A stretch of 64,000 nucleotides of DNA from Nitrospina sp. (GTDB taxonomy: Bacteria > Nitrospinota > Nitrospinia > Nitrospinales > JACRGP01). The DNA is taken from assembly GCA_024648695.1 (NCBI GenBank), contig JACAVV010000008.1, forward strand, positions 62,001-126,000. The letters run 5' to 3'. The notes under the pieces were generated by a model. It was not told where the DNA came from. It searched no databases and worked only from the letters and a program-made list of their open reading frames with translations. Positions within the stretch are counted from its first letter, which is position 1; each line of letters starts with the position of its first letter. Below, one piece after another: positions 14,862 through 41,646 of the stretch. Both the position numbers and the translations under genes were made by a program.

Positions 14862-15614
14862 ATGAAAACAGATTCCCCCTTTTGGAAATTCACACGGCGT
14901 GGAATTCTTGCAGGAATGGGGATGGCTTTGCTAAATATCCTCAAACCCAAACCGGCGCATGGCATCCCTGATTACCGCAATAACAAGGACATTCCCAAAC
15001 ACTATCTTCAGAACCGCGACAAACCCGGATTTTATATTCGAAGCGCCAACCCCTTTATGGGAGTCGATATCAATAATTGGGGTCTTGCCGTCACGGGGAA
15101 AGTCGACAATCCTGTAGGCTTGGGGTATGAGGACCTGTTCGGATTCAAGATGACCAGGCAGGTCTCGCGTTTGAAATGTGTGGAGTGCTGGTCTGCAAAA
15201 GCGGAATGGGAAGGTTTTCAGTTTCAGGAGTTGATCGATTTGGTCAAGCCGCATCCTGATGCCACCTACGTTTATTTTCAATCCGCCGACTCGTATTACG
15301 AAAGTTATCCCCTGTTTGAGCTGTTGAAGCCACGGGTGCTGATGGTTCTGCGAATGAATGGCCGTCCCTTGACTCCAGATCATGGCTACCCGCTTCGCTT
15401 GATCGCTCCATTTAAATACGGCTATAAAAACATCAAATACATCACCAGCATCAAATTCACCAACGAGAGAAACCGCAATTACTGGTCGAATAACGGGCCA
15501 TATTCTGTGGACGGCACTATTCAGCCGGGTATTGATCATCCTCTCGATTTTGGAAAAAAGCCTCTGCCCATTTATGGCGGGGAAGTCTTTCATCATTACG
15601 ACAAGAAGTTATGA
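14862..15614 (+). CDS. Tat-exported molybdopterin-dependent oxidoreductase (sulfite oxidase/YedY fold)
   Basis: A 250-residue protein with a twin-arginine signal (FTRRGILAGMGMALLNIL) followed by a sulfite-oxidase-type molybdopterin-binding domain. The putative molybdenum-ligand cysteine is in RLKCVECW. The conserved GYPLRLIAPFKYGYKNIKY block closes the fold. It is similar in size and plan to the catalytic subunit of periplasmic YedY/MsrP-like enzymes, but no YedZ-like heme partner is adjacent. The substrate is unknown. It begins 23 bases after dapB and its stop overlaps the next start by 4 bases (ATGA), so it is coupled to the SUMF1-like lipoprotein. Confidence 0.82.
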   Translation: MKTDSPFWKFTRRGILAGMGMALLNILKPKPAHGIPDYRNNKDIPKHYLQNRDKPGFYIRSANPFMGVDINNWGLAVTGKVDNPVGLGYEDLFGFKMTRQVSRLKCVECWSAKAEWEGFQFQELIDLVKPHPDATYVYFQSADSYYESYPLFELLKPRVLMVLRMNGRPLTPDHGYPLRLIAPFKYGYKNIKYITSIKFTNERNRNYWSNNGPYSVDGTIQPGIDHPLDFGKKPLPIYGGEVFHHYDKKL

Positions 15615-16324
15615 GATGGTGCCGACTTCTTTTTCTGGTCAGCCTGCTTGTTTCCTGCACTGATGACAGTGTTCAGCAAATCGAGGTTAAAGTTCCCAAA
15701 GGGGTGAATGTTCCGCAAGGGATGGTGTACATCCCGCCGGGAAAGTTCATTATGGGCCATAAATCCGATCCCAAAACCCTTGGAGGGAAAGAAGTGTCCC
15801 TCAAAGGATTCCTGATCGACCGCTACGAAGTTTCCCAAAAAGAATATTTAAAATTCAAACCCGAACACGTACCAATAAAGGGTAAGAAATCTTTTCCCGT
15901 ATCCCATGTCTCTTATTCAGAGGCCGAAGCGTACTGTAAGTGGAAGCGCAAACGTTTGCCCACCGAAGCGGAATGGGAGAAAGCGGCACGTGGGACCGAC
16001 GGACGCAAATGGCCGTGGCTGATTTTTCACAGTCATCCCAACAATGGGTTTTCGGGATTTCTGCCGGAACCTGTGGACAAGCGTGAAGAATGGATCAGCC
16101 CTTATGGCGTGTATGGTATGGGTCACAACGTTTGGGAATGGACATCTGATTGGTACTCATACAACGGCATGCCAGGCAGTGAAGAGAATCAGTATAAAAC
16201 CATTCGCGGCGGCCTCACTCAGACCCACCTCACTATAAAGTTCACCGCAACCTATTTCAGGAACCGACAGAAGCCCGACGCCAAATTCAATTTTTTAGGT
16301 TTGCGCTGTGCGAAGGATGTTTAA
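15611..16324 (+). CDS. SUMF1/FGE-sulfatase-domain lipoprotein
   Basis: A 237-residue protein. The N-terminus MRWCRLLFLVSLLVSC is a lipoprotein signal with a lipobox cysteine. The rest is a SUMF1-type C-type-lectin fold: MVYIPPGKFIMG, IDRYEVSQKEYLKF, KRLPTEAEWEKAARG and a GLRCAKD end. The two catalytic cysteines of true formylglycine-generating enzymes are absent (the segment after IRGG reads LTQTHLTIKFTATYF), so it is unlikely to activate sulfatases. Translational coupling to the upstream molybdoenzyme suggests a shared periplasmic role, perhaps as a structural or maturation partner; that is inference. Confidence 0.82.
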   Translation: MRWCRLLFLVSLLVSCTDDSVQQIEVKVPKGVNVPQGMVYIPPGKFIMGHKSDPKTLGGKEVSLKGFLIDRYEVSQKEYLKFKPEHVPIKGKKSFPVSHVSYSEAEAYCKWKRKRLPTEAEWEKAARGTDGRKWPWLIFHSHPNNGFSGFLPEPVDKREEWISPYGVYGMGHNVWEWTSDWYSYNGMPGSEENQYKTIRGGLTQTHLTIKFTATYFRNRQKPDAKFNFLGLRCAKDV

Positions 16325-31053: not shown

Positions 31054-31626
31054 TCAGGCTAAAGTTAAATTAGGAATTTTCGCAATATGCTCTGCCTCTT
31101 TCAACAGTTTTTGTCCTTCTTCGGTGATTCCATTTCCAAAAACATCCAGGTACTGTAAGCCAGTGAGGATCATGCTTTCTGCCAGTGCTTTAGCCCCTTC
31201 GTCGCCAATCTGGTTTTGGGCCAGATCCAGAGTGTTTAGATTGGCAAGATACAGGGAATCGCCGATTTCCTTGACCCCTTCGGCTCCGACCTGGTTTTTC
31301 CACAAATTTAGAATTACCAGGTTGGAGCAATTGGAAGCTTGTGCAATGGCCTTGACCCCTTCGTCTCCAATGGAGTTTCGTTCCAGATGCAAAACTCTCA
31401 GCTTTTTAATGAAGGGTGACTCCATCAAGGATTGGATTCCCTCATCGGTGATTTCATTGCGTTCCAGATTCAGTTCCTCCAGGTTTTCCAACTCCTTTGT
31501 GTTTGCCAGGATTTTCAGGCCCTCGTCTCCGATGTATTTCAAGCGCAGATCCAGTTCCCGGCCATCGTTTTTTAAAAGTTTGGGAATGAGGGCTTCGACA
31601 GGTTCGTCATTGAAAGGTTTGTTCAT
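31054..31626 (-). CDS. Leucine-rich repeat protein (ribonuclease-inhibitor type)
   Basis: A 190-residue protein made almost entirely of about seven LRRs of roughly 24-28 residues with the consensus LxxLNLxxNxIGDEGVKxIA (for example LEELNLERNEITDEGIQSL, LRVLHLERNSIGDEGVKAI, LNTLDLAQNQIGDEGAKAL). There is no signal peptide, so it is probably cytoplasmic and a protein-protein binder. Its start overlaps the stop of the M1 peptidase gene by 4 bases (ATGA). Confidence 0.85.
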   Translation of the reverse strand: MNKPFNDEPVEALIPKLLKNDGRELDLRLKYIGDEGLKILANTKELENLEELNLERNEITDEGIQSLMESPFIKKLRVLHLERNSIGDEGVKAIAQASNCSNLVILNLWKNQVGAEGVKEIGDSLYLANLNTLDLAQNQIGDEGAKALAESMILTGLQYLDVFGNGITEEGQKLLKEAEHIAKIPNLTLA

Positions 31627-34238
31627 TTCTTTTTCCTTTTATCCTTACGGGTTTGATTAGCTTCGTTATTTTTTTCGATGCGCTCAATGCGCTGACGCAG
31701 TGATTTGTTTTCCGAGGTCAGGTCTTCCAGCTCCGAGCGAATTTCCTGAATGGCTACCGGTTTTTTAACGGAGGAAAAAAGCGAAGATACCGCTTCCTCT
31801 GCTCTGCGTCTGAGTCTGCCATCGGTTTCATTTTCAGCAATCCAGCGCAGGGTAGGGATGGCTTTTAAATCATCCAGTTCCGTCAATGCATGAATAGCGC
31901 CCAGTTTGCCACGAAAATTGGTGGCGGGCTGTCCCCGGGTTTCCTGTGCAAGACGGGTCAGGCATTCGATCGCCTCTTCCTTGCGATGCGGAAATCGCGC
32001 GCCCAATTTAGCTAATGCCTTCATTGCGGCGGACCTACTGTTCTTGGGGGCTCCATAATCCGCGCCCTTGACCAAAGTGTCCCAGGAATCCTCCAATTCC
32101 AGATCGCCCAATGCCATAAAAATGGCCATTGGAAGCATGTCGTTGTGAGTGGGCCGGTCAAACGAGTCTTCAAGGAACTGCCTGCTGTCAAGATCGCGTA
32201 CCCGTCCCAGGGCGCGAAATGCGCTTGCTTCCACGCGATAGGAAGAATCTCCCTCCGCAATCTTTTTTAATACGTTCACCACACGCGAATCATTTGGAAA
32301 CTTGCCCAGAGCCTGAACCACAGCCCGCCTGGTTTTCGGGTTCTCCAATTTTGTTGCTTTCAATAGAGCGTCGCGGGATTGATTGCCTCCGATTTTTCCA
32401 AGTGTTTCAGCGATTCTCTCCGCCACGCCCCAAAAGCCTTCTTTCAATAATTGTCTGCCGAGTATTTTAATGTCTTCGGATGATGGTTTGGTTTGCAAAG
32501 CTTTCGCGGCTTGGATGCGACCGATGGGATCCGGATCTACTTTCAATTGCTCGTGAAGCACGTTACGCGAAAGCTCGAGGTTTACTTTTTTGCACGGGCA
32601 TTCGTAATCCGGATCCAGCCGTAAAAATTTGGGGCGCGACTTTAATTTGAAACAAAACCGTTCTTCTTTATATTGAATTTCGATGGGGAAGCGCTCCTCA
32701 GAGCGGCCAAAATAAAAAGCGATTTTAAGATTCAAATGAAATAATAAAGAGTCCTCCTTTTTTTCAGCCTTTTGCACTTGTTTGACATCCACCAAAGCCA
32801 TATTGTTTTTAGCGTCCCATTGATACTTCAGTTCAAGGATCGGGTATCCACCCCGGTAGATCCATTGGTCGAGCCACCCGTCAAAATTGCGGCCACTGAT
32901 TTCTTCCAGGGAACGCATCAGGTCGACGGTTTCCACCACGCTGAACTCATGGCGTTTTAAAAACCGTTCCAGTCCCTGGCGAAAATACTCCTCTCCCATA
33001 ATGGATTTCAGATGATGCAATCGGACCGCCCCTCCAGGATATAAATGCGCGTCGAATAAATCTATGGGCTCCTTATAAATATGAGTCACAATGGGCCGAC
33101 GATATTTTAGATCTTCCGAGAAGTAAGTTTCAGCATCCTGCAGAAGCTGGTAACGAAATTCGTCTTCCCCTTTGGACTCGCGGGTGTAGAGTGCGTCGAA
33201 ATAGGTGGCAAAAGATTCGTGCAACCAGGCGTGTGACCAGTTTTTCACTGTTACCAGATTGCCAAACCATGTGTGTGCCGCTTCGTGCGCGACCAGGCAA
33301 TTGGAGTCGCCGTCAAGCGCGGCGCGATCATCGTGCAAGGTGAGGTCGGTTTGTGTGGTGACGGTAAAATTTTCCATGCCCCCAAACACGAAATCCGGCA
33401 CCGCAATTTGTGTGTAATGTTTGTAGGGATAGGTGTAGCCCGTGTATTCAGAAAAGAAGCGAAGCATGTCCGCTGTATCCTTAAAAGCGTTTTTCCCTTC
33501 CCGCTCGCGTCCTTTTTGAACGTACCATTTGACCTGAATATTCTTCCAGCGGTCTTTAGTTTCCACAAACTCTCCAGCAACAATTGAAAACAAATAAGTA
33601 GAGTAGGGGACTTCCATTCTATAATGGTATTTTGATTTTTTTGAGGTGAGTTGTTTTTCGATCAACGTTCCATTGGATAACCCAAACATGCCAGCAGGCA
33701 GGTTCAGGATCACCTCCGTACTTTGCTTGAAGTTGGGCTTGTCAAAACAGGGGAAATAATATTTGGAATCCTCATCCTGTCCCTGAGTCCACACCGTTTT
33801 AAAATTGTCTGGATAATACGAGTCGGGTTGGGTGAAATAAATACCGGCTGGCGGATGACTGACCGCGTGAACGAGTTTGACGATGAGTTCCTTGCCCGGT
33901 GCGGGTGGACGGGATAAGGGAATATGAACTTTGTTTCGGTCGTAATCGAAAGGCACGGATTTAGTGCCAATCAAGACTTTTGAAATTTCCAGATCCACCG
34001 CGTCGAATTCAATGCAATCCAGATGGTGACCTTTGACAATCACCTGATGCGTGGTTGTACCCCACACCCGTTCTTCTTTCCAATCGAAGTTCAAATCGAG
34101 TTTGAGATGTTTGGGAAGGAAAGGCGTGTCCGGTGTGAAATGCGGTTTTGCCCCTTTCAGGGCAAAGGATTTCCTGTCCAGCACACCCCAATGCTGGCTT
34201 TCCCCCTCATGAATGTGAAATTTGCAATAACGGGTCAT
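31623..34238 (-). CDS. M1 family metallo-aminopeptidase with C-terminal HEAT repeats
   Basis: An 871-residue cytoplasmic enzyme without a signal peptide. The exopeptidase motif GGMEN is at 286-290. The zinc site is HEAAH at 318-322 with the third ligand Glu341 in WLHES. It removes N-terminal residues from peptides. After the M1 fold (to about 570) come HEAT/PBS-like repeats of about 30 residues (VNVLKKIAEGDSSYRVEASA, RQFLEDSF and similar) and a final coiled coil (SELEDLTSENKSLRQRIERI). It heads a three-gene minus-strand operon with the LRR and GspE-N-like proteins, which suggests a shared scaffold. Confidence 0.9.
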   Translation of the reverse strand: MTRYCKFHIHEGESQHWGVLDRKSFALKGAKPHFTPDTPFLPKHLKLDLNFDWKEERVWGTTTHQVIVKGHHLDCIEFDAVDLEISKVLIGTKSVPFDYDRNKVHIPLSRPPAPGKELIVKLVHAVSHPPAGIYFTQPDSYYPDNFKTVWTQGQDEDSKYYFPCFDKPNFKQSTEVILNLPAGMFGLSNGTLIEKQLTSKKSKYHYRMEVPYSTYLFSIVAGEFVETKDRWKNIQVKWYVQKGREREGKNAFKDTADMLRFFSEYTGYTYPYKHYTQIAVPDFVFGGMENFTVTTQTDLTLHDDRAALDGDSNCLVAHEAAHTWFGNLVTVKNWSHAWLHESFATYFDALYTRESKGEDEFRYQLLQDAETYFSEDLKYRRPIVTHIYKEPIDLFDAHLYPGGAVRLHHLKSIMGEEYFRQGLERFLKRHEFSVVETVDLMRSLEEISGRNFDGWLDQWIYRGGYPILELKYQWDAKNNMALVDVKQVQKAEKKEDSLLFHLNLKIAFYFGRSEERFPIEIQYKEERFCFKLKSRPKFLRLDPDYECPCKKVNLELSRNVLHEQLKVDPDPIGRIQAAKALQTKPSSEDIKILGRQLLKEGFWGVAERIAETLGKIGGNQSRDALLKATKLENPKTRRAVVQALGKFPNDSRVVNVLKKIAEGDSSYRVEASAFRALGRVRDLDSRQFLEDSFDRPTHNDMLPMAIFMALGDLELEDSWDTLVKGADYGAPKNSRSAAMKALAKLGARFPHRKEEAIECLTRLAQETRGQPATNFRGKLGAIHALTELDDLKAIPTLRWIAENETDGRLRRRAEEAVSSLFSSVKKPVAIQEIRSELEDLTSENKSLRQRIERIEKNNEANQTRKDKRKKK

Positions 34239-34429
34239 TTAAAAAAGACTTTTGTTTTAATATTTAGATTTTTCAATTTATTGTAATTGGGTTTACATTA
34301 TTGTCAATGTTTGGATCCATTATTTGCTGACCTTACATTTAAATATTCATTACCCTTTATTAATGGCTCGAATTTAATTATGATATTAGAAAAGCATTTC
34401 ATACCCCATATTAACCTTCTTTGCCATCA

Positions 34430-35347
34430 ATGACAGAAACCACAACCCACTTTACGGATCCGGCACTTGTCTCCAGAATATCGAATCTCAGCATTCATGC
34501 ACGCAATCTGGTAGAGGGCATGCTTTCGGGCCATCACCGAAGCCGCCACAAGGGATCAAGTGTGGAGTTTGCGGAATACAAGGATTACTCTCCTGGAGAC
34601 GAAATCCGCCACATCGACTGGAAGGTGATGGGCAAGACTGACAAATATCATGTCAAGCAGTTCGAGCAGTCGACCAATCTGCGGTGCACGGTTTTGCTGG
34701 ATGCCAGTGGGTCGATGGATTACCGCTCTCCTTTCAACAATGGGGAAGCGGTGCAAAAAATGGAATATGCGCGTATGCTGACCGCCAGTCTGGCTTATCT
34801 GCTTTTGAAGCAATTCGATGCGGTGGGCTTGACCCTTTTCAACGAATCACTGGTGAATCATATTCCACCCAGATCCAAACCGTCGCATTTCCAGAATATT
34901 CTTCATGGTCTTGCTGAAGGTGCACCCAAAGGCAACACCCGGTTTGGAGATGTCTTTAATTCGTTGATCGAACGCTTACCCAGCAGGAGTTTGCTCATTG
35001 TGGTCTCGGACCTGTTGGCGAAGGATGAGGATTTGGTAAAAAATCTGAAACTCATTCGCGCGCGTGGGGTGGAGACCATCGTGTTTCATATTCTTCATCC
35101 CGATGAAGTGTATTTCCCTTTTGAGGGCGATATTGTGTTCGAGTCTCTGGAAGACGATGCCCCTGTCGGACTCGATCCAGTAGATATCCGCGAGGCGTAC
35201 CAGAAAATTATTCAGGATCGAATCGATTCGATGACCAGGACGTGCCCTTCTCTGGGCGTAGACTATGTGTTTTTGCAAACGGACATGCCTTTGGAACAGG
35301 CGCTGAGGTATTACCTGTTGCGCCGAAACAGTATGTTGAACAAATGA
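34430..35347 (+). CDS. DUF58 domain protein
   Basis: A 305-residue protein of the DUF58 family (often in MoxR/Bat stress operons). The N-terminal signature GSSVEFAEYKDYSPGDEIRH is followed by IDWKVMGKTDKYHVKQFE. A VWA-like segment has LLDASGSMDYRS, the MIDAS DxSxS. The start ATG at 34430 replaces a TTG at 34421. Its stop overlaps the BatA-like gene start by 4 bases (ATGA). No MoxR ATPase lies upstream; that gene may be elsewhere. Confidence 0.9.
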   Translation: MTETTTHFTDPALVSRISNLSIHARNLVEGMLSGHHRSRHKGSSVEFAEYKDYSPGDEIRHIDWKVMGKTDKYHVKQFEQSTNLRCTVLLDASGSMDYRSPFNNGEAVQKMEYARMLTASLAYLLLKQFDAVGLTLFNESLVNHIPPRSKPSHFQNILHGLAEGAPKGNTRFGDVFNSLIERLPSRSLLIVVSDLLAKDEDLVKNLKLIRARGVETIVFHILHPDEVYFPFEGDIVFESLEDDAPVGLDPVDIREAYQKIIQDRIDSMTRTCPSLGVDYVFLQTDMPLEQALRYYLLRRNSMLNK

Positions 35348-37503
35348 GCCTCAACTTTCTTTCTCCTGTTTTTATGCTGGGTTTGGTGGGGATCGGTTTG
35401 CCCATTCTCATTCATCTGTTCACCAAACGCCAGCAAACGCAAATTGATTTTTCTGCAGTTTTTCTTTTACTACAATCGCAAAAACGGTCCATTAAAAAGG
35501 CGCGGCCCAACCGTTTGCTTTTGTTGGTTCTTCGTTGCCTGGCAATCGCCTTTCTAAGTCTGGCTCTGGCCGGTCCCCTGTTTTCCATGGGCGATCCGGA
35601 AAAGCTGATGCCTTCCGCTTCCAGTTCGAATATTTTGATTCTTGACGATTCCCTAAGTATGTCGGCGCAAACGGAAAATGGGGATTTGTTCACTTCGGCA
35701 AAATCGCAGGGGAAACAGTGGGTGGAGGGCATGGCTCCCGGCTCCGAATTCAGCCTGATTTTAGCTTCCAATCCTCCCAAGGTGCAGAGCCAATGGACTC
35801 AAAACCGTGAATCTTTTTTAAAGACTTTGGATCTCATAGCGCTTAGTTTCAGATCCACCGACGTGGGAGGTGCTTTCGCGGAAGCAAAAAAACTGTTGGA
35901 GACCTCCAAAAACAGCAGTAAAAATATTTTCATCGCCACTGATCTTACCCGCTCCGGTTGGAAATCGAAAATTTTTCCCTTGTCGTTTGACCGACTAAAC
36001 GCACCGCAAATTCAAATTCTTGATATGTCCGCTTTGCAATCGGTTCCCAATCGTATCCGGGTTGATACTTCAAAGGCGGATCAGGAGTTTCTGGCCAATA
36101 GCAGAATGATTCGCGTGAATGCCCAGTTACAGAATTTATTGCAGGACCAGGATTTGCAACAAGTCTCTCTTGCATTGTGGGCCAATGGTAAAAAACGTTC
36201 GGAAGTTTCCGCCCATTTTAAGAAGGGCGAGTCCATTAGTAAAGAATTCTCCATTCCTTATTTTGAAGAAGAGGCTTTGAAAGGATTTATTGAGGCAGAA
36301 CCTGATGGTCTTCCCCTGGATAACCGCCATTACTTTTCGTTTCAACCCGAACAGAAAGTGCGCGTTCTGGTAATCGACGGCGACCCCAAAGCGGCTGGAC
36401 AACAAAGTGAGACTTATTATGTTGAGCGCGCATTGAATCCATTTTCAGTATCGCTTTCGGATATCGAACCCACCGTCTCTACCCTGTCGGAACTGACTCG
36501 CAGGAACCTGCTGGATTTTCATGTGCTCATGTTATGCAATGTCAGAGAGCTACCTTATGGTTACGAGCAAACCCTGGAGAGTTTCGTTTCCCGGGGAGGC
36601 AGTCTGATCATTTCACTGGGTGATCAGGTCGATCCGAAATTTTATAACGAAAAACTCGGCAACCTGTTGCCGGTGACCCTTGAGTCGCTCAACCAGGTAA
36701 GCTTTGAGGATGAATGGTTCCGGTTTCTGATAAAGCCGTCCGAGCACCCGGTGCTGAAAGTATTTTCCAAAAAAGCCTGGGATGGAATGCGCACGATTCG
36801 TTTTCAATCTTTGTACAGTGTGGCTCCCCGGGATGGGAAACGGTATACCGTGCCTTTAAAATTCAGCAACCAGTTTCCCGCTGTGGTGGAATCGCAGTTT
36901 GGAAAAGGAAGCGTGGTATTATTCACCTCTTCGCTGGACAGGGATTGGAATAATTTCCCGATACAACCCACTTTTCTTCCCTGGGTTCAACGGTGGGTAA
37001 AGTATGGTGCGCGTAGCCTCGACAATTTTTCAGCGCAAAACCTGAAAGTGGGTGACCCCTGGGTTTCTCATGAGGAAGGTTATACCTTTTTTGTAAAAAC
37101 ACCCACAGGGGAGGTGAGAAGGGCTGAAAAAGTTCCAAACAGTACGGAAGTCCGTTTCGAGGACACCTGGCAACCGGGCATCTACCAATTGTTTCGCCTG
37201 GAAACGGTCGAACCGGTTTCTGAGGACCCCAAAGAAAAGTCTGAAACGGTCTACTCCTTGCCTTTGGATGCAGAAGCTGTAGGACCTTTTTCTGTCAACA
37301 TTGACCCCGCAGAAACAGATCCCTCAAAAATGTCCAAAAAGGAAATTAAAAACCTGTTTCCCGGCCTGTCACTGGAAGTGCTCAGTCCTGCATCGGACCA
37401 GGATTCGGTTACACCCTTTCATCGAATCAATTTGACGACACCTTTTCTTGCTTTGATGGTATTGATGATATTTGGCGAAGGGTATCTGGTAAGAAGGGAA
37501 TAA
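35344..37503 (+). CDS. BatA/VWA-domain membrane protein with GATase1-like region
   Basis: A 719-residue inner-membrane protein. The N-terminus SLNFLSPVFMLGLVGIGLPI with HLFTKRQQTQIDFSAVFLL is the BatA-type aerotolerance-regulator opening. A span LLLLVLRCLAIAFLSLALA follows, then a VWA domain (ILILDDSLSMS, DxSxS). The middle has VLVIDGDPKAAGQQSETYYV and LESFVSRGGSLIISLG, a GATase1-like fold seen in this group. A final span TPFLALMVLMIFGEGYLV ends the protein. The start at 35344 shares ATGA with the upstream DUF58 stop; the longer ORF is an extension without support. Confidence 0.87.
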   Translation: MSLNFLSPVFMLGLVGIGLPILIHLFTKRQQTQIDFSAVFLLLQSQKRSIKKARPNRLLLLVLRCLAIAFLSLALAGPLFSMGDPEKLMPSASSSNILILDDSLSMSAQTENGDLFTSAKSQGKQWVEGMAPGSEFSLILASNPPKVQSQWTQNRESFLKTLDLIALSFRSTDVGGAFAEAKKLLETSKNSSKNIFIATDLTRSGWKSKIFPLSFDRLNAPQIQILDMSALQSVPNRIRVDTSKADQEFLANSRMIRVNAQLQNLLQDQDLQQVSLALWANGKKRSEVSAHFKKGESISKEFSIPYFEEEALKGFIEAEPDGLPLDNRHYFSFQPEQKVRVLVIDGDPKAAGQQSETYYVERALNPFSVSLSDIEPTVSTLSELTRRNLLDFHVLMLCNVRELPYGYEQTLESFVSRGGSLIISLGDQVDPKFYNEKLGNLLPVTLESLNQVSFEDEWFRFLIKPSEHPVLKVFSKKAWDGMRTIRFQSLYSVAPRDGKRYTVPLKFSNQFPAVVESQFGKGSVVLFTSSLDRDWNNFPIQPTFLPWVQRWVKYGARSLDNFSAQNLKVGDPWVSHEEGYTFFVKTPTGEVRRAEKVPNSTEVRFEDTWQPGIYQLFRLETVEPVSEDPKEKSETVYSLPLDAEAVGPFSVNIDPAETDPSKMSKKEIKNLFPGLSLEVLSPASDQDSVTPFHRINLTTPFLALMVLMIFGEGYLVRRE

Positions 37504-37517
37504 TCCGTTATTGGGCC

Positions 37518-38525
37518 TTATGCCAGTTTTGACATAAAGTTCGCTGTTGTTTGCGACAAGTATTTTGAAATTTCCTCAATTGGCAGGATTTCATCTGCGA
37601 GTCCCGCGGAAATTACAGATTGGGGCATTTTATCGACTAAAGCAGTATCAGGATCTTGCACAACAACTTTTCCGCCAGCGGCTTTAATACATGCCGCACC
37701 GCGTATTCCATCACATCCCATTCCCGATAGAATGACTGCTGTGCTATAGGGTCCGAAGGTCTCGGCCAGACTTTTTAGCAAATCGTCCCCTTTCGTGGAT
37801 GAGGAAAAAGTTTCATTTTCCATTTTCGATTCGCAAACCCGTTTTTCGGCATCGAGAGACAGAGAATTCTCCTCAAGAAAAAGTAACGCATGGGATACTT
37901 TTGCCGGAATCCCTGGTCCCGCGAATTGTATTTGTAATCCAACTGTCTCCTGTAGTTTTTCAATCATCAACTCAAGCATCCAGCGAGGACCCTGCTGAAG
38001 CAGAAAGAGGCCGCTTTGCTCCACGAATGTAGCGTTTTGAAAAAGCTTGGAATACAGGTTGGGGCCTCCGGCACCTGATAAAAATGCGATAACGGGAAAA
38101 GCGGGCCTGGTTTTTGGGGGAGATACACGAGTCGTGTCGGGGGCAAAATCATCGATGGATTGTTGCCAGCGAGCTACTGCATTGTTCAGGCATTTCAGGA
38201 CCTCCTGAGATCCAAAGGGCTTGCCCAAAAAATCATCCGCGCCGGCAAACAGAACTTGTTGCTTGGCCTCACCGGAACTGATGGCGGTGATCATCAGGAT
38301 CAAGGGAGCGGGTTTGACTTGTGACCGAACCTGGCAGATCAGTTCCACGCCGTCCATCTCCGGCATCAACCAATCCGTCATTAAAATATCGTAAGCTTGT
38401 TCTTTAATTAGCTTTAACGCTTCTTGTCCGTTGCAAGCGATGTCGACCTTGTACGATTCCCTGGTTAAAATAAATTTTAACAGGCGCGCATTATCCGAAT
38501 CGTCTTCTGCCAGTAATACGTTCAA
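37518..38525 (-). CDS. CheB-like protein: receiver domain plus degenerate methylesterase domain
   Basis: A 335-residue protein. Residues 1-120 form a receiver domain with acidic pocket D8-D9, phospho-acceptor D51 (ILMTDW), T80 and K102 (LGKPF). Residues about 142-330 align with the CheB methylesterase: IAFLSGAGGPNLYSKLF matches IGASTGGPxAL, and LFLLQQGP matches QHMP. The catalytic Ser is replaced by Gly151 and the His by Gln178; only the Asp (SGMGCDGIRGA) remains. It should therefore not be an active esterase. The start is a TTG at 38525 with GGAAGG 8 bases upstream. No chemotaxis genes are nearby. Confidence 0.8.
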   Translation of the reverse strand: MNVLLAEDDSDNARLLKFILTRESYKVDIACNGQEALKLIKEQAYDILMTDWLMPEMDGVELICQVRSQVKPAPLILMITAISSGEAKQQVLFAGADDFLGKPFGSQEVLKCLNNAVARWQQSIDDFAPDTTRVSPPKTRPAFPVIAFLSGAGGPNLYSKLFQNATFVEQSGLFLLQQGPRWMLELMIEKLQETVGLQIQFAGPGIPAKVSHALLFLEENSLSLDAEKRVCESKMENETFSSSTKGDDLLKSLAETFGPYSTAVILSGMGCDGIRGAACIKAAGGKVVVQDPDTALVDKMPQSVISAGLADEILPIEEISKYLSQTTANFMSKLA

Positions 38526-38710
38526 TGTATATTCCTTCCAAAAATTAACCCTGAGAAATGGGACCTTATTATAGGCCAATCGGGAAAACATACATCCAAA
38601 AAATCGAATGCTTCCAAAACGGTTTCGGGATTTTGGCCGAGCGCTACACGGGTGATTTGCTTTCAGATTTTCGAAAGGATTTTTAAAGGGGGCATTCCCT
38701 CACGATCCTT

Positions 38711-38773: not shown

Positions 38774-41356
38774 ATGAGAACCCTTTCCCAAATTTTCAAG
38801 ATATGTGTTTTGGTTTTATCCATATGTTTCGTCTTCATTGCTGACGTTACCGATTCACAGGCGGCGGGCTCCGTCTCTGATCGTGTTTCGTTGGAAACGC
38901 TGATCAGCCAATCGGATCAGGATCTTGATTTAACGGATGCGCTTTTAACGGTTTCAAAAGACTGGAACCCCAAGCTTGATCTGGACGTGTATCGGAGAAA
39001 GCTCGACCAACTCACTGAGAAGTTGCAAAAACAACTAGATGGGAATCAATCACCCGAAAGGTTGCTTTCGGTATTGAGGGACACTTTGTACCAAAAGGAG
39101 GGCTTCGCTTATACAGATAAGGTGGACAGTCAGGGCATCCCACTGAATTCTGAGGAGATTTTTCTGCACGGATTGCTGGATTCCAAACGCGGCTACTGCA
39201 TGACCCTGTCACTCCTGCATCTGATATTAGGAGAACGTTTGGGATTGCCCTTGTATGGGGTGGCTTTGCCCAACCATTTTTTTGTCAGATATGAGTCCGG
39301 ATCAAAACGCATCAATATAGAAACGACACAATCGGGGGTGTCGCTTCCCGATACCTATTATCGAGACAGTTTTAATGTCCCGTCCAGTCGGGCTAATGAA
39401 TTTTTCATGCGAAACTTGAGCGAACGGGAAAGCCTGGGTGCTTATTTTTCAAATGTGGGGATGACCTATTACAAGCAAAAAAAACCCGAAAAAGCGGTTG
39501 AATACCTCAACCTTGCAGTAAAAGTGAATACCCGTTCCCTCGAAGCTTTGAACAACCTGGCCAATATCCATTCCGAATTGAAACAATATGATTTGGCGAT
39601 TAAAGCTTATAAGCAGGCTTTGCAAGCGGACCCGAACAGTCTCGAAACCCTGTTTAATCTGGGCATCACACAATCGGAAGCCGAACTTCCGGATCAGGCG
39701 ATCGAATCGTTTTTGCAAGTGGTGCAAATGGACGCGCGCTACTTTCTGGCTCACGAGGCGTTGGTTCAGTTATACCTGGGGAAAAGAAAACCGGTTTCTG
39801 CGTTGCTTCATCTTAAGCAACTGTACCGCTTCAATCCGAGAGATATCCAAACCCTGAGCAACATAGGAAATGTGTATTTGCAACTCAAGCAATACTCGCT
39901 GGCTTTGATTGAGTTTAAAAAAGCAGAGCAAATGAATCCCAAAAAGCCGGACGTGCTGGAAGGCTTGGCTGAAGCGTATTACCGTCTGGACGATTTTGAT
40001 CAGGCAATGATTTATTTTCGTTACCTTACGGAAGAAGCCCCCTCGAATTTATCGGCTCATGTGCAGTTGGGCTGGACCCATTACCGCAAGGGAGAGCTTC
40101 GTATGGCCATCGCCTGGACGCAACGGGGGCTGGCTCGCAAGAAGGAGAACGATCCTTTCCTTCCCCTGGCTTACATGAATCTGGGCCTCTACCATTTATT
40201 AGAAAAAAACTTTCCTATGGCAGAATCCGCCTACGAAAAAGCCCTTACCCTGAACCTGGGAGCTACAAAACAAGGAACCATCGATGATTTAAAGTCTGCT
40301 TCCAAAAAATTCATGAGTGTTTTTGAAATCGATTATTTTATGGGGTGGATTTATTTCAAGGCAGAACAGAAACCATTAGCCAAAAAGTATCTGGAATCTT
40401 ATTTGGGTAAAAGTCCTGAAGGCCCCCTGAGCGTCAAAGCAAGGACTCTACTGCGCTTCATCGAAGGCAATAGCACCGAAACCCCGGAATCACCGGCCCC
40501 GTCGGTTCCATTCCCACCCTCTGAAAATGAAGAAGCCCGTCCGGAGGCTGACCCCGACATGGTTGAAATTCCTGAAGGACCCTTTATCATGGGGTCGGAG
40601 GACAATGGTCCAGACGAAAAACCCGAACATAAAGTTCAACTGGACGCATTTTATATAGACCGCTATGAAGTTTCGGCAAAGGATTATGCCGCATTTCTCA
40701 ATCAGATTGGAACGTCCAAAGGGTATTATCATGACAACAAGTTTGGAACCCTGGAATACAATGGCACATTTCGTGCGCGTCCCGGACTGGAAGATTTTCC
40801 GGTGAACAACGTTTCCTGGTTTGGTGCCAATGCCTATTGCGAATGGAAGAAAAAGCGTCTTCCTACCGAAGCGGAATGGGAAAAGGCCGCTCGGGGGCCC
40901 AATGGTCGGATTTTTCCCTGGGGCGACCAGAAACCAAGTCACGATCAGGCCCGCTTTTTTCAAACCTGGACCGAGGAAATTAAGCACCGAGTGATGGTTC
41001 CGGTCACCCGATACGGGAACGGAACCAGCGTATATGGGGTTTTCAATTTGGCCGGAAATGTGAAAGAATGGGTAGACGATTGGTATGATCGGGAGTATTA
41101 TTCAGAGACAGAACATCAAATCAACCCCCGGGGTCCATTGGGCGGTGAGTTCAAAGTTTTGAAAGGAGGTTCCTGGAGAGACCTTTCGTCATTTCTTTAT
41201 TCTTCGTTCCGGAATAACAATCAACCGGAATCGCGTATGGACGATTATGGATTTCGTTGCGCCAAAGACGCCGATGGCGGGAAGGCACCCGTTCCACCCG
41301 CTTCTAAAAAGCGTTTGATACGATGGAACGGATCGTTGGGTGTTAAAGTTTATTAA
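38774..41356 (+). CDS. Exported transglutaminase-TPR-SUMF1 fusion
   Basis: An 860-residue three-part protein. A signal peptide (FKICVLVLSICFVFIADVT) leads to a SirB1/transglutaminase-like domain (about 60-215) with Cys142 in RGYCMTLSLLHL and His168 in PNHFFVRY. About eight TPRs follow (225-490; for example AIKAYKQALQADPNSLETLF). After a Pro/Glu-rich linker (near 570-590) comes a SUMF1-type domain (MVEIPEGPFIMGSEDN, KRLPTEAEWEKAARG, GYRFRCA-like end). The FGE catalytic cysteines are absent (KGGSWRDLSSFLYSSF), so it is not a formylglycine-generating enzyme. The combination suggests a periplasmic or surface scaffold; role unknown. Confidence 0.85.
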   Translation: MRTLSQIFKICVLVLSICFVFIADVTDSQAAGSVSDRVSLETLISQSDQDLDLTDALLTVSKDWNPKLDLDVYRRKLDQLTEKLQKQLDGNQSPERLLSVLRDTLYQKEGFAYTDKVDSQGIPLNSEEIFLHGLLDSKRGYCMTLSLLHLILGERLGLPLYGVALPNHFFVRYESGSKRINIETTQSGVSLPDTYYRDSFNVPSSRANEFFMRNLSERESLGAYFSNVGMTYYKQKKPEKAVEYLNLAVKVNTRSLEALNNLANIHSELKQYDLAIKAYKQALQADPNSLETLFNLGITQSEAELPDQAIESFLQVVQMDARYFLAHEALVQLYLGKRKPVSALLHLKQLYRFNPRDIQTLSNIGNVYLQLKQYSLALIEFKKAEQMNPKKPDVLEGLAEAYYRLDDFDQAMIYFRYLTEEAPSNLSAHVQLGWTHYRKGELRMAIAWTQRGLARKKENDPFLPLAYMNLGLYHLLEKNFPMAESAYEKALTLNLGATKQGTIDDLKSASKKFMSVFEIDYFMGWIYFKAEQKPLAKKYLESYLGKSPEGPLSVKARTLLRFIEGNSTETPESPAPSVPFPPSENEEARPEADPDMVEIPEGPFIMGSEDNGPDEKPEHKVQLDAFYIDRYEVSAKDYAAFLNQIGTSKGYYHDNKFGTLEYNGTFRARPGLEDFPVNNVSWFGANAYCEWKKKRLPTEAEWEKAARGPNGRIFPWGDQKPSHDQARFFQTWTEEIKHRVMVPVTRYGNGTSVYGVFNLAGNVKEWVDDWYDREYYSETEHQINPRGPLGGEFKVLKGGSWRDLSSFLYSSFRNNNQPESRMDDYGFRCAKDADGGKAPVPPASKKRLIRWNGSLGVKVY

Positions 41357-41382: not shown

Positions 41383-41646
41383 ATGTTAGGCACCATCGAA
41401 GTACTGATCATTATTGTCATCCTGGGAATCATTTTCGGGAGGGACGCCATTGATCGCACTTTTAAAAAGCATCCTGATGAGACCCTTATGGAAAGTCTCA
41501 GCGAGGACGTGAAAGATTATTACAAGAGCGATCCCAAACGAATTTTTATCATCGCTGGGAGCGTGCTGGCAGGCTTCATTTTTGTGAGTATATTAATTTA
41601 TTGGGTGATCACGCGCACGAAATTTTTGCAAATGATCGGCCTTTAA
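41383..41646 (+). CDS. Small two-span membrane protein
   Basis: An 87-residue protein. Helix 1 (LGTIEVLIIIVILGIIFGRDAI) resembles a TatA N-terminus, but the rest does not: an amphipathic acidic middle (DETLMESLSEDVKDYYK) and a second span (FIIAGSVLAGFIFVSILIYW). True TatA has one span and a basic amphipathic helix, so TatA is doubtful. It lies 26 bases after the fusion gene. Function unknown. Confidence 0.6.
   Translation: MLGTIEVLIIIVILGIIFGRDAIDRTFKKHPDETLMESLSEDVKDYYKSDPKRIFIIAGSVLAGFIFVSILIYWVITRTKFLQMIGL

Follow-up and report, generated by a model that had tools for sequence, protein, structure and literature searches.

The window (the whole 64,000-nt stretch of DNA analyzed) contains an open reading frame at 38774–41356 on the + strand that encodes an 860-residue protein (ORF list and translation). 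From the N- to the C-terminus, Pfam matches, structural models, and reading of the sequence locate a signal-like N-terminus, a Transglut_core2 (TG) domain, about 8–10 TPR hairpins, and a SUMF1/FGE-sulfatase domain; the first-pass annotation had proposed these three domains in this order, and Pfam matches for Transglut_core2, TPR families, and FGE-sulfatase bear it out. Full-length orthologs across the order Nitrospinales share 44–54% identity with the protein, so the reading frame is a real gene and not a chance one. Scans of the 64,000-nt window for tandem repeats, tRNAs, and Rfam families found none. The relevant features are as follows.

34421–35347, + strand: DUF58 protein of a Bat/MoxR-type cluster (Pfam DUF58, E 7.4e-43), a looser neighbor
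35242–37503, + strand: BatA/vWA protein (Pfam BatA, E 9.6e-18; VWA_2, E 2.1e-10)
38774–38863, + strand: signal-like N-terminal segment (residues ~1–30, ending ...DSQA/AG), read from the translation
38990–39352, + strand: Transglut_core2 (papain/transglutaminase-fold) domain (residues 73–193; Pfam PF13369, E 1.1e-19)
39197–39199, + strand: Cys142, candidate catalytic nucleophile in a GYC motif at the N-terminus of the core helix; invariant in 43/43 aligned sequences
39275–39277, + strand: His168, in a PNHFFVRY motif at the start of a strand; invariant in 43/43
39320–39322, + strand: Glu183, third triad residue in an NIE motif at the end of a strand; 42 Glu and 1 Asp in 43
39422–40462, + strand: TPR array of about 8–10 helical hairpins (residues 217–563; Pfam TPR families and model helices)
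40553–41266, + strand: SUMF1/FGE-sulfatase domain (residues 594–831; Pfam PF03781, E 4.6e-57)
41383–41646, + strand: 87-residue membrane protein in which two hydrophobic segments can be seen by eye; directly downstream and a constant neighbor

Signal-like N-terminus, triad, and domains

We infer Sec export from the N-terminus of the protein. On reading 33 orthologs, most N-termini are similarly hydrophobic and an AxA ending is frequent; in the 43-sequence alignment, the N-terminal C11 and C18 are not conserved and there is no conserved lipobox Cys.

The PF13369 profile scores 70.9 bits against a curated cut-off of 23.5, that is, the domain is a member of the Transglut_core2 superfamily. The first-pass annotation had picked out Cys142 and His168 as visible catalytic residues; both lie exactly there and are invariant, and the third residue, on which the proposal depended, is present as Glu183. 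In an AlphaFold2 model of the domain (residues 35–222, 47 sequences; pLDDT 92, pTM 0.89), Cys142 is the first residue of core helix 108–122 of the model, His168 opens strand 134–141, and Glu183 closes the next strand, 144–149. Papain-like enzymes place the Cys at a helix N-terminus and use Asn, Gln, Asp, or Glu as the third residue (PMC10318531); because the positions of the three residues in the model match this description, the layout is that of a canonical papain-like triad. Both conservation and secondary-structure placement therefore identify a papain/transglutaminase fold, with Cys at the N-terminus of the core helix and His and a polar third residue on neighboring strands. A Foldseek search of the PDB with the model returned PNGase, a putative Cytophaga cysteine protease, TGases, and menin (probability ~1.0), all with E 2.7e-3 or weaker and TM-scores of 0.4–0.5; this is a likeness at the level of the fold and not close kinship. 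A search of a library of viral structures returned no useful match. We also observed that residue 106 (window 39089–39091) is Tyr in the window protein and His, otherwise near-invariant, in 42 of the 43 aligned sequences.

About eight TPRs had been claimed from the sequence, and roughly eight clear ones can be counted among the ~ten hairpins predicted: the Pfam TPR families are strong over residues ~225–460, and the full-length model has ~ten helical hairpins over residues 217–563 (pLDDT mostly >90).

The PF03781 profile scores 194 bits against a cut-off of 23.3, so the C-terminal domain has the FGE-sulfatase fold, and it aligns with solved FGE at E ~1e-38. In this alignment Leu808 occupies the position of Cys336, and the position of Cys341 falls at or beside a gap; the active-site cysteine pair of human FGE (336/341) is thus missing, as the first-pass annotation had stated. 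C689 and C829 are invariant (43/43) and both align with Cys positions of FGE; in FGE these correspond to a structural disulfide, and a disulfide here would be in keeping with the periplasm. Because parts of this domain are poorly modeled in the full-length prediction, its assignment rests on sequence. A variable protein of the DGR type (SUMF1/CLec fold) is unlikely, given that the C-terminal region is well conserved among orthologs.

Distribution and genome neighborhood

Matches to the TG-TPR part came from 55 of the 64 Nitrospinales genomes (phylum Nitrospinota), at a single locus in each; in one of the 55 the gene is split over two contigs. The 13 genomes examined from other orders of the class gave no match and contain no Transglut_core2 domain at all. 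Several of the Nitrospinales genomes that lack the gene are incomplete; a 94%-complete genome (G032) also lacks it. A query with the entire protein recovers full-length orthologs from most Nitrospinales genomes. The named loci are from Nitrospinota, mostly Nitrospina and Nitrospinaceae MAGs; two records are titled Nitrospirae/Nitrospirota, yet they match in the same way as the remaining loci.

Members of the small membrane protein family (~88 residues) were found in 54 of the phylum's 77 genomes. The two genes were found together in 53 genomes, and comparison of the hit lists places them next to each other on one contig every time, so the co-occurrence suggested in the first-pass annotation holds; in the few genomes with a split TG gene, the small gene adjoins the 3′ part. 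Two genomes (G029 and G012) have the TG gene and not the small one, and in both the TG gene abuts a contig end; one (G064) has the small gene only. The small protein has no credible Pfam or NCBIfam match. Membership in TatA/B was considered and rejected (TatA/E was matched by two of nine members, best E 0.049, far below the cut-off); near the N-terminus, the hydrophobic segment (spacing E6 to G19) is faintly TatA/B-like, with profile scores that are not significant. A special link to the SUMF1 lipoprotein at 15.6 kb is unsupported: this lone lipoprotein-like protein (window 15611–16324) is one of 34 FGE-sulfatase family matches in the 4.2-Mb genome.

The DUF58 and BatA/vWA genes are upstream in 13 of 20 relatives, with BatA on the same strand, and the linkage is lost in 7. 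Genes for a flavin reductase and IscU, unrelated downstream neighbors, are about equally conserved near the TG-TPR gene in the 20 loci, so the Bat linkage is suggestive only. The DUF58/BatA cluster has no MoxR gene; the closest one on the contig is ~60 kb distant. Two further neighborhoods were recorded. A response-regulator receiver–CheB methylesterase fusion (window 37518–38591, − strand) separates BatA from the TG-TPR-SUMF1 gene; L037 has a related protein at this position, and most relatives have none there. At 31054–34238 (− strand) an LRR-like protein is paired with an aminopeptidase-like one, which by eye resembles M1 with HEAT-type repeats; the pair is conserved across Nitrospinales, usually divergent from DUF58/BatA.

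The first-pass annotation had called the three-part order unusual and asked whether it had been described. TG followed by TPR is by itself a known, old, and named arrangement (SirB1, menin), so this part is not new; for the three-part protein, or for Nitrospina with these domains, we found no description in the open-licence PMC literature. We searched with the TG profile in 392 genomes of a Planctomycetota-type phylum, 384 of an Omnitrophota-type phylum, and 395 of the class that contains the Bacteroidales match; the scope is thus ~1,170 genomes sampled from three other groups, together with a single pattern scan across species-representative genomes. Within the ~1,170, SUMF1 was checked in selected sequences and through the length of the reading frames. 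On reading, nine long frames of the Planctomycetota type contain no SUMF1 (the remaining Planctomycetota-type matches were judged by length only), and the matches in the Omnitrophota-type phylum and in the class of the Bacteroidales match are too short to hold one. Among relatives whose domains were checked, a C-terminal SUMF1 on TG-TPR was therefore seen only in Nitrospinales, and the order of domains does appear unusual.

In a tree, the Nitrospinales TG domains form one clade (100/99) with a Planctomycetota-type TG-TPR clade as sister (94/89). Resolution is poor at the deeper forks, and the E. coli YchA branch is very long, so the tree gives no firm position for the origin of SirB1. Accordingly, SUMF1 was most simply gained later, in Nitrospinales. 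PA14 forms the C-terminus of two Planctomycetota-type relatives by Pfam (L107 and L108) and of a third by eye (L150), and another ends in a retropepsin-like domain by eye; the C-terminal module thus seems exchangeable. In Bacteroidales L105, a TG reading frame is overlapped by a TPR reading frame in another frame, again with no SUMF1.

Proposed function and its rivals

We propose that the protein is a papain-fold cysteine enzyme of the periplasm, an amidase/peptidase or transamidase, that carries a TPR platform and a lectin-like end and has the small membrane protein as its partner; we give this about an even chance of being correct. The protein would be an extracytoplasmic cysteine enzyme of papain/transglutaminase fold using the Cys142-His168-Glu183 triad; the TPR array beside the active site may hold a partner or a stretch of peptide, with the SUMF1 (C-type-lectin-like) domain perhaps serving as a non-catalytic binding end. 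The enzyme would act together with the small membrane protein encoded next to it, probably at the inner membrane, and most likely an amide bond of an envelope protein would be cleaved or transferred (amidase/peptidase or transamidase). The domains, the conservation and predicted placement of the triad, the strict gene pair, and the single order-wide locus were computed; we infer catalysis, substrate binding by the TPR and SUMF1 parts, and anchoring by the small membrane partner.

Catalysis is argued for by the near-complete retention of the triad in orthologs that are only 44–54% identical overall. The enzyme reading is also supported by a comparison within the family, in that 60 of 60 TG-TPR-type sequences from Nitrospinales, Planctomycetota, Omnitrophota, and Bacteroidales (a few loci counted twice) keep Cys-His-Glu or Cys-His-Asp vs loss of the Cys in six SirB1-type sequences, and by the nearest solved folds, which include active enzymes (PNGase, TGase) as well as the putative cysteine protease; the TG domain is probably an active cysteine enzyme. 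The pairing with the small gene supports the partnership. However, the modest Foldseek scores weaken the enzyme reading, as does menin, in which a TG-like fold on a TPR scaffold can be pure scaffold; PF13369 has no established function (PMC10318531).

The main rival is a scaffold like menin or SirB1, in which the TG fold would be a peptide-binding pocket and the TPR and SUMF1 parts would assemble an envelope complex, possibly with Bat/vWA proteins. Menin, with its TG-like fold joined to TPRs, has the highest TM-score listed by Foldseek (TMq 0.54), SirB1 proteins of the same family lack the Cys, and the upstream BatA/DUF58 genes recall the periplasmic complex proposed for Bat proteins (PMC3557215). 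A dead pocket, though, should not retain Cys-His-Glu in 42–43 of 43 orthologs and across phyla; the Bat linkage, with its losses and its equally conserved unrelated neighbors, may be plain synteny; and no DUF58/BatA-like reading frame was found near Planctomycetota TG-TPR genes with profiles built from Nitrospinales sequences only. We judge the scaffold unlikely on balance, although a serious contender. The first-pass annotation had allowed for either crosslinking or cleavage, and the sequence favors neither hydrolysis nor transfer. The fold and triad would be compatible with a transglutaminase in the strict sense, one that crosslinks Gln and Lys in matrix or in proteins of the cell surface, and a binding domain would help to hold its target; but many non-crosslinkers share the fold, the third triad residue is nearly always Glu, and no sequence feature points to transfer over hydrolysis, so we regard it as improbable. 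That the SUMF1 domain is the enzymatic part (an FGE- or EgtB-like oxidase) and the rest its carrier is very improbable: this domain ranks with the best conserved regions of the protein and aligns well with FGE, but the FGE cysteines are replaced or absent and no EgtB-type DinB domain is among the Pfam matches.

Returning to the cysteine enzyme, the Transglut_core2 family spans E. coli to human FBXO21, and the clean split among the sequences checked, Cys-less SirB1-type vs triad-keeping TG-TPR, marks a branch in which an activity assay could work. With slightly less than even confidence, we suggest that this is an undescribed periplasmic, triad-intact branch of Transglut_core2 whose C-terminal module (SUMF1 in Nitrospinales, PA14 in some Planctomycetota) is exchanged between lineages; in Nitrospinales it would have come to form, together with a new family of small membrane proteins, a two-gene envelope module that defines the order. 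Nitrospinales include major marine nitrite oxidizers; the order-wide conservation and strict pairing mark a likely envelope function for which the open-licence PMC search found no description.

Comparison with known systems

In SirB1/YchA proteins, too, PF13369 precedes a helical/TPR part (the annotation of YchA is transglutaminase-like/TPR), but the window protein is not in the SirB1 subfamily (NF008188, 35.2 bits vs an equivalog cut-off of 391). Unlike it, stand-alone SirB1-type proteins are ~270–320 residues and have no SUMF1, and those of E. coli and this genome have no obvious signal sequence on reading. The six SirB1-type sequences checked also lack the catalytic Cys (Pro, Ala, or His instead): E. 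coli YchA (L109:1821–2630) has Ala for Cys and Gln for His, SirB1 of this genome (L041:1177–2064) has Pro for Cys, and four others likewise lack the Cys; the proteins from E. coli and this genome are thus probably pseudoenzymes. The apparently exported TG-TPR proteins of Planctomycetota, Omnitrophota, and Bacteroidales share the CHE/CHD triad, a TPR array, and, in several, a signal-like N-terminus by eye; their C-termini, however, are plain TPR, PA14, or retropepsin-like, with no SUMF1 in those examined.

Menin (PF05053) is a eukaryotic, nuclear protein. Like the window protein, it combines a TG-like fold with a scaffold of TPRs (its TM-score against the TG domain is 0.54), but it has no SUMF1, and human menin lacks the catalytic Cys (PMC10318531). 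FGE/SUMF1 shares the SUMF1 fold and the two Cys positions of C689 and C829; in the window protein, however, the catalytic cysteines are missing and the domain serves as a C-terminal module. Bat/MoxR-DUF58-vWA clusters combine vWA and TPR proteins, and the DUF58 and BatA/vWA genes upstream in many relatives recall them, but here the cluster has no MoxR and adjacency is lost in 7/20; we know of no TG-SUMF1 protein in the described Bat operons.
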